From: Acidobacteriota bacterium
GTDB lineage: Bacteria > Acidobacteriota > Thermoanaerobaculia > Gp7-AA8
Direction: 5' to 3'
Length of the DNA: 64,000 nt
Assembly (NCBI GenBank): GCA_021781455.1
Contig: JAJXWV010000083.1
Span: forward strand, 62,001 to 126,000
The notes beneath the pieces were generated by a model. It saw only the letters and a program-made list of their open reading frames with translations. It had not been told where the DNA came from and did not search any database. Positions 32,609 through 57,498 of this stretch are shown here, in pieces. Numbering within the stretch: position 1 is the stretch's first letter; every line of letters begins with the position of its first letter. Made by a program: the position numbers and the translations under genes.

Positions 32609-35600
32609 GTGGACCTGTCGCGTCGATCATTCCTCAAAGCGACGACCGTGGGCGGAGCTGTCGCCTTGGGCTTCGATCTCTCCCGTGCCCGAGCCGAGGT
32701 GCGGGAATTCAAGATCTCCCGCACCACCGAGACCCGCAGCATCTGCCCGTACTGCGCCGTGTCGTGCGGCGTGATCGTCCATACGCTGGGTGACCGCTCC
32801 AAGAACGCCACGCCGGCGGTCGTGCACATCGAGGGCGATCCCGATCACCCGATCAGCCGCGGCAGCCTCTGTCCGAAAGGCATCACGCTCAAGGACGACA
32901 TCAACAATCCCGCCCGGCTGAAGTCTCCGAAGGTCCGCCGTCCCGGCTCCGACCATTGGGAAGAGATCAGCTGGGACGAGGCGATCTCCGGCATCGCGCG
33001 CCATCTGAAGGACACGCGCGACCGCACCTTCGTGGCGAAGAACGCGAAGGGCCAGGTCGTCAACCGCACACCAGGCATCGCCATGATCGGCGGCTGCACC
33101 GACACGAACGAGTTCAATTTCCTGCAGTGGAAGGCGATCTCGGCCTGGGGAGTGCCCTACAGGGACAGCCAGGCTAGGGTTTGACACGGCCCCACGGTGG
33201 CCAGTTTGGCCGCCACATTCGGTCGCGGTGCAATGACCAATGGCTGGGTCGACATCAAGAACGCCGACGTGATTCTGGCGATGGGCGGCAATCCCGCCGA
33301 GAACCATCCGGTCGGCTTCAAGTGGTTCATGGAAGCGCGGCGGACTCGCAATGCGAAGCTGGTCGTCGTCGATCCGCGCTTCACGCGGACCGCGTCGGTC
33401 GCTGACCTTTATGCGCGGGTGCGCTCCGGCTCCGACATCGCTTTCCTGCTGGGCATCATTCGCTACGCAATCAACACGGGCCGCTTCCACAGCGACTACG
33501 TCAAGCTCTTCACGAATGGGCCATACATCATCAGCGACAAGTTCTCTTTCAACGACGGGCTCTTCTCCGGATTCGACGGGACCAAGAACCAGTATGTGAA
33601 GGACAGCTGGGCGTACGAAGCGGATCCGAAGAGCAAGGCCTACGCACTCGACCAGACGATGCAGCATCCGCGCTGCGTGTTCCAGCTCCTGAAGAAGCAC
33701 GTCGATCGCTACACGCCGGAAGTCGTCGAGCAGATCTGCGGGACACCGAAGGAAACGTTCCTCAAAGTCGCCGAGATCGTCACCTCGACTGGAAACGCCG
33801 AGCGATGCGGCACGATCACCTACGCCCTCGGCTGGACGCAGCACTCCATCGGCGTGCAGATCATCCGCGCCGGCGCCATGCTGCAGCTCCTGCTCGGAAA
33901 CGTCGGGCGTCCCGGCGGCGGCGTGAACGCCTTCCGCGGTCACTCGAACATCCAGGGTGCTACCGATACCGGCGGCACGTTCGAGATTCTTCCGGGCTAC
34001 CTCAAGACTCCTACGGCAGACCTGCAGACGCTCGCTGACTACAACAAGGCCGGTCCTCCGACGACGCTCAACAACGTGCCGTGGGCGAGCATGAACTACT
34101 GGGTCAATTACCCGAAGTTCATGGCCTCGCTCCTCAAGTCCATCTACGGCAACGCTGCCACGAAGGAGAACGACTTCGGATACGCCTGGCTCCCGAAGGT
34201 CGATGGCAACTACTCCTGGATGTATATCTACGACGACATGTACCGCGGCAGCTCGATGCGCGCGGGCGGCAAGGAGGCGGCGCCGGAAGGCTTCCTCACC
34301 TTCGGCATGAACCCGGTGGGCCTCGGCCCGAACGTCAAGAAGATCATCGCCGCGCTGTCGAAGTTGAAGTGGATGGTGGTGGTCGAGAACGTGGAGATCG
34401 AGACCGCTCGATTCTGGGGCGCCCCGAAGGAGTATGGCGGCGCGCCTCCAGCGCAGATCCAGACCGAGGTCTATCTGCTGCCCGCTTCCGGCTTCGCGGA
34501 AAAGGATGGCACGTTCACCAACTCCGCGCGATGGCTGCAATGGAAGTGGAAGGCGCTCGATCCTCCGGGACAGGCGAAGACCGATCAGGAGATCCTGTCC
34601 CGCATCTTCCTCGCCGTTCAGAATCTCTATCGCAAGGAAGGCGGCGCGCTCCCGGAGCAGGTCCTGAACGTCTCCTGGGCCTACACCAATCCGGTGAACC
34701 CCGACCTCGGCGAGGTCCTCAAGGAGATGAACGGAAAGGCGCTCGTGGACCTGAAAGATCCCAAGGACCCGACCAAGGTCATCAAGGCAGCCGGGCAGCA
34801 GATCGACGGGTTCATCCAGCTCATGGACGACGGCAGCACGATGTGCGGCAACTGGCTGCACTCCGGCGTCTACACGGAAGCGGGCAACAACGCTCAACGA
34901 AGGAACAACGCCGATCCGACAGGGCTCGGCATGTTCCACAACTGGGGTTTCTCTTGGCCTGCCAATCGCCGGATCATGTACAACCGCGCATCCGCGGACG
35001 CGCAGGGAAAACCGTGGGATCCGACGCGCATCGGCATTCAATGGAACGGGCAGAAGTGGGTCGGCGACGTGCCGGACATGAAGCCCGACGCTCCTCCCGG
35101 GACCTACGGCGCCTTTATCATGCTGCCCGAAGGAGTCGGGCGCCTGTTCGCCGGCGTCCTTGCCGACGGGCCCTTCCCCGAGCACTACGAGCCGGTCGAG
35201 GCTCCGATCACGAATCCGCTGCACCCGAAGGTGACATCCAATCCGGTGGCGCTGAAGTTCGCCTCGGACAAGGACTCCATCGGCAAGGTCGACGAGTTTC
35301 CGATCATCTGCACGACCTACCGCCTGACCGAGATGTACCACTACTGGACCAAGCATCAGCAGGGCGGCGTGCTGAACGAGTTGCAGCCGGGCTTCTTCGT
35401 GGAGATCCCGGAACAGCTCGCAGCCGAGAAGGGAATTGCGAACGGCTCGCAGGTGCGCGTTACGTCGGCACGCGGCTCGATCGAGGGCGTGGCCATGGTC
35501 ACGCAGCGCCTCCAGCCGATGAAGATCGACGGAAAACAGCTGTGGCAGATCGGCTTCCCCCTGCACTGGGGTTTTGCCGCCGCCAAGGGACACACCGGCC

Positions 35601-56238: not shown

Positions 56239-56321
56239 GCGTAGGGACGCGCAGCAGCGCGTCCGCAACCCTGGGGGCATGCGACGAGAGGTGCGGACGC
56301 GCTGCTGCGCGTCCCTACGCC
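56239..56321. repeat. BIME-like palindrome, GTAGGGACGCGCAGCAGCGCGTCC family (copy 3)
   Basis: ggcgtagggacgcgcagcagcgcgtccgcaacc ... ggtgcggacgcgctgctgcgcgtccctacgcc. Confidence 0.95.
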
Positions 56322-56410: not shown

Positions 56411-56704
56411 ATGGTCAGGGATCGTCGGATCCGCTATATCCCCGAACGTGCTGCCGCCTGCCTCGCCTGTGCCTGCGAGGACCGCCGCAACGACGCCGCT
56501 CGTCACCTTCTCCGAAGCACCAACGCCCTGAGCTCGACCGGCGTTCTCGCCGCGATCGTCATCGCTGCGAGCGAGGCCCATCTGGAGATCGTCGAGCTCG
56601 CGCGCGCCGCGATCAACGAGCAACGGGAGCTCTGCCGGGAGCACGGGCCCTTCCGGTCCCACCGTTGCGGTGATCACGGGCTGGCGGCGTTGCAGCGACC
56701 GTAG
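56411..56704 (+). CDS. hypothetical protein
   Basis: 97-aa ORF with plausible ATG; weak support only. Confidence 0.3.
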   Translation: MVRDRRIRYIPERAAACLACACEDRRNDAARHLLRSTNALSSTGVLAAIVIAASEAHLEIVELARAAINEQRELCREHGPFRSHRCGDHGLAALQRP

Positions 56705-56714
56705 TAAGAGCGAT

Positions 56715-57036
56715 CAATGATTATGGCTCTCCACGATTTTCAGTGGATTCGCGTGGATATCAGTGGATTCGCGTGGATAGTGGAGAAGGGCGCTCCAGCC
56801 GCGGAGCGGCGAAATCCAAGTAGCCCAATGCCTCAGCGTTGGGATGATTGGTACCCTATCCAGCGTACGAGCCGCGGAGCGGCGGCATCTCCGAGAGACC
56901 AATGTCGCCGCTCCGCGGCTTAACGCTGTGCCTCGCTTCATCCCCCAAGGCTCACGCCTTGGGCTAATGAGATTTCGCCGCTCCGCGGCTCAACGGCGAG
57001 GCTTCATCCACTGAAAATCCCGAAGCGCCATGGTCA
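56715..57036. repeat. ~320 bp nested palindromic element (MITE-like or structured RNA)
   Basis: Outer arms attttcagtggat...atccactgaaaat, with further terminal similarity caatgattatggc.../...gccatggtcaattg; internal ccgcggagcggcg/cgccgctccgcgg copies and cccaatgcctcagcgttggg, cccaaggctcacgccttggg hairpins. Confidence 0.85.
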
Positions 57037-57498
57037 ATTGTCCGGCCACTTCGCCGCAGGCTTCCCCATCCAGACCCAGGCGATGAAGTCGAGCGTCGGC
57101 GGCTCGGATCCCATTTCGCGGAGCTTCGTCAGCACCTGTCCGCGATGGTTCGTGCTGTGCCACGGCACCTGCATGAGGGTTTCGGCAACGGTGCTGTCAT
57201 GGACCGTTCCGAACTGAGCGCTCAGTCGTTCCGCCCAGGGCAGGACTGCGATCTGGTCGAGTTTCTCCTCCGTCAGTCCGGCGAGAAAGCGGGCCATTCG
57301 CCGGTGCTGCTCGCGTCCCCAGCGCGCCAGGGCAGCGCTGTCTTCGAAGGCGGACACTTCCTTGTACTTCAGCTCCGCGCGCGTCCAGATCGTGAAGTAC
57401 GCGCTCTGCACGGCGTGAATGTGGTGCAGGCGCTCGCGAATGCCGGAGTCCGCGGCGGTTCGGTCGTTCGACAGCACCGCTCCGAATACGCTTGTCAT
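57034..57498 (-). CDS. DinB family protein
   Basis: LMQVPWHSTNHRGQVLTKLREMGSEPPTLDFIAW (DinB-type H..H..Q pattern). Confidence 0.85.
   Translation of the reverse strand: MTSVFGAVLSNDRTAADSGIRERLHHIHAVQSAYFTIWTRAELKYKEVSAFEDSAALARWGREQHRRMARFLAGLTEEKLDQIAVLPWAERLSAQFGTVHDSTVAETLMQVPWHSTNHRGQVLTKLREMGSEPPTLDFIAWVWMGKPAAKWPDN

Follow-up and report, generated by a model that had tools for sequence, protein, structure and literature searches.

The window (the whole stretch of DNA that was analysed, 64,000 nt) belongs to a 4.88-Mb draft genome of an Acidobacteriota bacterium, referred to below as the host genome. Within it, a gene-less element of 305 bp lies between a small conserved ORF and a DinB-family gene. 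The features of the locus were as follows, with the evidence for each in brackets.

56411..56707, plus strand: small conserved ORF, syntenic with a homologue in the same-genus genome G149 whose C-terminus is different and longer (ORF list and comparison with G149)
56717..56724, no strand: 8-mer on the left flank, ATGATTAT, a candidate for a target-site duplication (TSD) that has decayed (5/8 match to 57030-57037)
56725..57029, no strand: whole composite non-autonomous element, 305 bp, an outer MITE with a REP-like core nested centrally (ends from comparison of genomic copies)
56725..56746, plus strand: left terminal inverted repeat (TIR) of the outer MITE, GGCTCTCCACGATTTTCAGTGG (pattern search of the host genome)
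56740..56779, plus strand: 20-bp tandem duplication in the left arm of the outer MITE (repeat analysis)
56797..56990, no strand: core, two inverted REP-like units, read as both termini of a subclass 1.2 TnpA element that has lost its gene (repeats, RF01687 and R1 matches, other copies)
56797..56843, minus strand: left REP-like unit, RF01687 Acido-Lenti-1, 24.9 bits, below gathering (Rfam model)
56798..56810, no strand: left outer hairpin hp2, GCCGCGGAGCGGC (repeat analysis)
56820..56843, plus strand: GTAG (56820-56823) followed directly by the hp1 hairpin CCCAATGCCTCAGCGTTGGG, in REP-like orientation (sequence)
56871..56883, no strand: left inner hairpin hp2' (placed with respect to hp1 like the hairpin that, at the TnpA gene on contig C13, separates hp1 from the start codon)
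56907..56919, no strand: right inner hairpin hp2'' (the order hp2''-hp1-hp2 is also found 3' of a TnpA relic, L315, in genome G154)
56944..56990, plus strand: right REP-like unit, RF01687 Acido-Lenti-1, 44 bits, above the gathering threshold of 37 (Rfam model)
56944..56967, minus strand: TTAG followed directly by the hp1 hairpin of the right unit (sequence read on the minus strand)
56977..56989, no strand: right outer hairpin hp2, GCCGCTCCGCGGC (repeat analysis)
57008..57029, minus strand: right TIR of the outer MITE, GGCGCTTCGGGATTTTCAGTGG read on the minus strand (pattern search and TIR-anchored flank comparison)
57030..57037, no strand: right flank 8-mer ATGGTCAA, candidate decayed TSD (flank comparison)
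57034..57498, minus strand: DinB-family gene (PF05163), the element lying just downstream of its stop codon (ORF list and domain match)

The initial annotation had described a nested palindromic element of about 320 bp at 56715-57036, possibly a MITE or a structured RNA. The element itself stood, with its true ends placed slightly inside that interval (56725 and 57029) by the comparison of copies. The internal repeats were as described, comprising outer arms of 31 nt (81 % complementary), two direct repeats of 20 bp (56740-56759 and 56760-56779, 100 % identical), four copies of a CCGCGGAGCGGCG hairpin, two in each orientation, and two small stem-loops that differ in sequence (56824-56843 and 56944-56963). 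A distance of 4 bp separates the right end from the DinB-family stop codon, in agreement with the claim that the element ends there, and inspection of ORFs likewise revealed no convincing coding potential inside it. The suggested TIRs were present as imperfect 22-bp repeats, whereas the further similarity of the two ends (caatgattatggc and gccatggtcaattg) lies mostly outside the element and may be a decayed 8-bp TSD; the 5/8 match was not convincing alone, random 8-mers reaching five or more identities in about 4 % of cases. The 20-bp tandem duplication looks local, as it is missing from the arms in most of the other copies.

The element is not single-copy. Blastn returned 60 matches in the host genome, one example sharing 89 % identity over 230 bp, and the window copy thus combines TIRs, the lack of a coding gene and multiple copies, as is characteristic of MITEs. 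In G149, the homologues of the left gene and of the DinB-family gene are adjacent and the short gap between them contains no element, giving an empty orthologous site. The end of the left ORF (window 56690-56724) reads AALQRP followed by two stops, and in G149 AALQRNLHAPDIEYEGAADAE followed by a single stop; with these unlike C-termini, the two genomes differ here in more than the insertion.

Two other elements were seen in the window. A SECIS_3 selenocysteine insertion element (RF01989, 75.1 bits) was detected at 33179-33237, and a classical GTAG REPIN is located at 56241-56318, 400 bp upstream of the element, as the inverted pair GTAG-GGACGCGC-AGCA-GCGCGTCC. Genome-wide, the REPIN pattern was found 221 times in forward and 222 times in reverse orientation (control 0), although it is palindromic and some places are counted twice. 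It was not near any of the 14 Y1_Tnp loci in the host genome.

In its gene-less form without a core, the outer MITE is about 88 bp long, with the TIR GGCTCTTCAGGAT... A search with the imperfect 22-bp TIR pattern GGCTCTYCAGGATNTTCARTGG (up to three mismatches) located 39 places in the host genome, compared with one for a reversed-pattern control. Sister copies possessed TSDs of 8/8 (L187, 105 bp; L189 and L195, 413 bp each) or 7/8 (L192, L198 and L034), a count that was not blind since the scan was TIR-anchored and right ends were picked by similarity to known termini; the chance of 8/8 between random 8-mers is about 1e-4. As 8-bp TSDs also surrounded copies filled with a core, the filled copies moved as units. 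The start of the TIR, GGCTCTTC, presumably resembles ISL3 termini, and an ISL3-derived MITE with an autonomous ISL3 element of matching TIR was considered as a source; no match to the ISL3 transposase (PF01610) was found in the host genome, the genome searched. The outer MITE is therefore like MITEs of DDE insertion sequences with ISL3-like termini in its short TIRs starting with this motif and its 8-bp TSDs, but differs in that its genome lacks an ISL3 transposase. Several outer-MITE copies (e.g. L183, L190, L192, L197 and L211) adjoin short AATTGAG-type tandem repeats, possibly reflecting a target preference.

The TIRs and 8-bp TSDs that bound whole units, filled ones included, would also be expected if the whole were one ordinary MITE derived from a DDE insertion sequence, whose interior simply contained the hairpins, unrelated to any Y1 transposase. 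This is highly improbable, as the two layers occur apart from one another. Empty outer copies without a core were found on C66 and C24 (L199 and L184, 88-89 bp), and L187 has a single small hairpin in its middle. Meanwhile, core-type copies without outer arms were found on C43, C63 and C69 and around the transposase gene on C13. In addition, two different cores, of families A (that of the window) and C, occur inside the outer MITE. The window element is thus made up of two nested gene-less mobile parts. The earlier MITE reading agrees with the TIRs, the many copies, the 8-bp TSDs of the sister copies and the empty syntenic site, and was correct; the presence of two nested elements, with a core belonging to a named Rfam family, went beyond it.

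The second type of composite in the host genome (L189, L195, L198 and others, about 413 bp) shares the outer left arm and has a family C core, TTTAG-CGGCGGCCGTCAGGCCGCCG, which matches the ends of the C61 transposase; its composites carry 8/8 and 7/8 TSDs.

Both halves of the window core match RF01687 (Acido-Lenti-1), only the right half above gathering. With R1, a model built in this work from Acidobacteriota transposase flanks and the two window units, the left and right units scored 46.9 and 49.5 bits, both having been used in its construction. Each unit consists of hp2 (a short stem with a 3-nt loop), a linker, NTAG, hp1 (an 8-bp stem with mostly a 4-nt loop), about 25 nt and hp2'. The order in the window core, hp2-hp1-hp2'-hp2''-hp1-hp2, is that of both ends of an element from which the gene has gone. 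RF01687 had 33 matches in the host genome, many of them paired, one minus and one plus, at a spacing of about 147-155 bp as in the window copy. Acido-Lenti-1 has been listed as an RNA, not cis-regulatory, in Acidobacteria and Lentisphaerae (Weinberg 2010, PMC2864571), and no link between RF01687 and a transposase was found in the literature searched.

On C13, copies of RF01687 directly flank a gene for a 149-aa Y1_Tnp protein on both sides. The protein matched PF01797 and NF033573 (E = 1.7e-26 and 3e-20, respectively), which places it among IS200/IS605 Y1_Tnp transposases, and resembled ISHp608 TnpA structures (E = 8e-10). It carries WQ and YIQNQREHH, and Y114, Q118, H121, H122, W94 and Q95 were invariant across 22 TnpA sequences; the HuH motif is HAH in the C13 protein and HVH or HIH in most others. 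These proteins were assigned to subclass 1.2 by motif (Y...Q..HH, WQ, HuH and a length of about 148 aa, all of which were found) rather than by the MCL clustering used by the authors of the classification (PMC6006769). Subclass 1.2 has been described as having WQ, YIKNQKEHH and a median length of 148 aa, as occurring mostly in Cyanobacteria and Bacteroidetes, and as lacking REPs or typical IS200 end structures (PMC6006769).

Gene-less core copies could be related to the ends of particular transposase genes. Those of family B (C43, C63 and C69) match the ends of the C13 TnpA in the host genome, and those of family C match the C61 TnpA ends, with local scores of 91-126 against a shuffle maximum of 52. 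None of the four close homologues in the draft host genome has ends of family A, that of the window. In G154, from a sister genus, a 5'-truncated TnpA relic is followed by hp2''-hp1-hp2, aligning with window 56902-56990. One further subclass 1.2 gene in the host genome (C87:31453-31785, L060/L137) is flanked by tandem arrays of GTAG hairpin units, GGTAGCCGGCAGTCGCC..., which differ from the other units in sequence and match them in architecture.

The association between RF01687 and TnpA was investigated in 149 genomes of the phylum, with homologues accepted at E<=1e-15. Both were present in 24 genomes, RF01687 only in 10, TnpA only in five and neither in 110 (Fisher p = 3e-15, kinship uncorrected). 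One of the RF01687-positive genomes (G140, a draft of 650 contigs) contained at least 38 RF01687 copies and no subclass 1.2 homologue even at E<=1e-8, a pattern for which a lost gene, a draft gap or mobilisation by another enzyme would each account. At the TnpA loci of the phylum, the upstream units were on the minus strand and the downstream units on the plus strand, both at short and similar distances from the gene.

An independent set of 80 TnpA loci was taken from another collection, picked by protein alone. Within 200 bp of the gene, 99 R1 matches had the expected inverted orientation and 17 the wrong one; these 116 near matches fell in 38.5 kb, compared with 45 in 182 kb of more distant sequence. 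Of the 58 loci outside Bacteroidota, R1 found one or more correctly placed units at 48 and both at 35, whilst Bacteroidota loci had units upstream in 0/22 and downstream in 3/22 cases; shared ancestry is uncorrected in these pair counts. The R1 counts are partly circular, TnpA flanks having gone into that model; the RF01687 results alone avoid this. The unmodified Rfam model detected both ends at 14 of 20 loci from outside Acidobacteriota, in records of Calditrichaceae, Planctomycetes, Verrucomicrobia, Deltaproteobacteria and Zixibacteria. At least six bacterial groups thus have RF01687 units as inverted DNA ends around Y1 transposase genes, and the published absence of REP-like or end structures in subclass 1.2 is not upheld outside Bacteroidota.

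The hairpins themselves have a hallmark of REPs. TAG lay directly 5' of 51 of the 83 perfect hairpins (8 bp or longer) beside 70 TnpA genes and of 68 of 104 in the independent set, and a TAG hairpin was found in one of 407 control segments; the TAG abutting hp1 is a relaxed form of the REP hallmark. Classical REPs and REPINs with their RAYTs are similar in that a hairpin is immediately preceded by a tetranucleotide with TAG as its last three bases, and in their inverted pairs, flanked Y1 gene and dispersed gene-less copies. The units described here differ in the initial base of the tetranucleotide, which need not be G, in the two extra hairpins (hp2 and hp2') of each unit and in the subclass of the transposase. 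A classical REPIN, moved by a class 2 RAYT (TnpA_REP), is an extremely improbable identity for the core: the inverted NTAG hairpins and the large classical GTAG REPIN family of the host genome would be in keeping with this, but the genes flanked by RF01687 carry the Y...Q..HH and WQ of subclass 1.2 and not the Y...NP of class 2 (PMC6006769), and in each unit the NTAG hairpin is bordered on both sides by a further hairpin.

Other systems were also compared. The proteins share with described subclass 1.2 TnpA_Y1 a length of about 149 aa, WQ, Y...Q..HH and a conserved C-terminal tail (PMC6006769), and differ in that paired hairpins at the ends accompany most of the homologues from outside Bacteroidota. 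Elements of the IS200/IS605 type also have a Y1_Tnp transposase; the same-strand, non-inverted end hairpins of that group are not what was found, since the ends here are inverted (upstream minus, downstream plus). TIRtrons, with their TIRYT genes, resemble the present elements in that tyrosine transposase genes are flanked by inverted repeats that also occur dispersed; they include Acidobacteria such as Koribacter versatilis, and the motif common to TIRtrons is GGGGWSAS (Di Nocera 2013, PMC3733652). The TIRYTs were, however, placed in other subclasses, with 20 of the 26 in 2.1, six divided between 2.2 and 2.5 and none in 1.2 (PMC6006769).

As the Rfam label implies, the hairpins could act in a transcript, as a structured non-coding RNA. 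In support of this, the right unit scores above gathering, covariation is strong (in hp1 of 28 units, 56 cells were changed on both sides) and the fold is very stable (-191 kcal/mol for a single strand of the region, compared with -127.9 +/- 5.2 for shuffled sequences, z = -12). A stable fold and covariation are, however, equally expected of DNA hairpins, and the pairing is nearly without G.U on the annotated strand: G.U accounted for 0 of 224 hp1 cells and, on the Rfam strand of 137 distinct units from the independent set, five G.U/U.G pairs were counted against 22 A.C/C.A (the units are related, kinship uncorrected). An A.C excess on the Rfam strand is a G.T excess on the opposite strand, whereas selection on an RNA read from the Rfam strand should favour G.U over A.C; the counts are those expected if it is DNA, or the opposite strand, that folds. 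The reading as an RNA is also opposed by the inverted pairs of units flanking transposase genes at similar, short distances, by the dispersal of the copies and by the absence of the window copy from the syntenic site of the relative. A read-through RNA, or a reverse-complement RNA from the opposite strand, may still fit the data. Taken as a whole, a structured RNA is very improbable; that part of the initial annotation coincides with a database label (RF01687), but the evidence favours a DNA recognition hairpin of a transposase over an RNA gene. Matches of the element to models of miRNA, VA RNA, P35 and isrG were weak, far below gathering, and were discarded as long-palindrome artefacts.

The best explanation, and a very probable one, is a composite gene-less mobile element in which ends of the subclass 1.2 TnpA type, with the gene deleted, are nested in an unrelated MITE of about 88 bp, Acido-Lenti-1 being such ends. 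The copies, boundaries, sister TSDs, empty site, TnpA association, architecture and covariation are results of the comparisons above; as regards enzymology, active strand and order of events, we infer the following course. The core (56797-56990) would be an internally deleted derivative of an IS200-like element with a Y1/HUH TnpA of subclass 1.2, its inverted hp2 - linker - NTAG-hp1 - spacer - hp2' units being the element ends, with about two dozen bases left in place of the gene in the window copy. If it acts like TnpA_REP, TnpA would bind NTAG and hp1 on ssDNA, e.g. the lagging-strand template, and would mobilise the two inverted ends as proposed for REP/RAYT systems, with gene-deleted pairs spreading as passengers. 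On this view RF01687 would be no RNA gene: the model would describe an element end as it reads on the strand complementary to the one with the NTAG hairpin. One core pair may have entered the centre of the unrelated MITE, after which copies with and without cores would have spread by conventional transposition leaving 8-bp TSDs, probably through a DDE-type enzyme, and the window copy would have inserted between the small conserved gene and the DinB-family gene.

Acido-Lenti-1 would thus most likely be the ssDNA recognition end of REP-like elements, belonging to a transposase subclass that had been described as having none. In wider terms, it is probable that Acido-Lenti-1, rather than being an RNA family, is the ssDNA terminus on which subclass 1.2 Y1 transposases operate in a separate REP-like system, found in Acidobacteriota, Planctomycetota, Verrucomicrobiota and other groups; gene-less derivatives of this system can be carried inside unrelated MITEs. 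The window element provides a clear case of nesting of mobile elements, with both layers resolved by sister copies, and the count of G.U against A.C pairs is a cheap test applicable to other curated RNA families that are possibly DNA repeats. The proposed identity joins two orphans, a curated RNA family without a known function and a transposase subclass said to be without end sequences. If it is correct, RF01687 annotations would have to be re-labelled as mobile-element ends, and NTAG-hp1 ssDNA would be a candidate substrate for work on the origin of REP systems from IS200-like enzymes.
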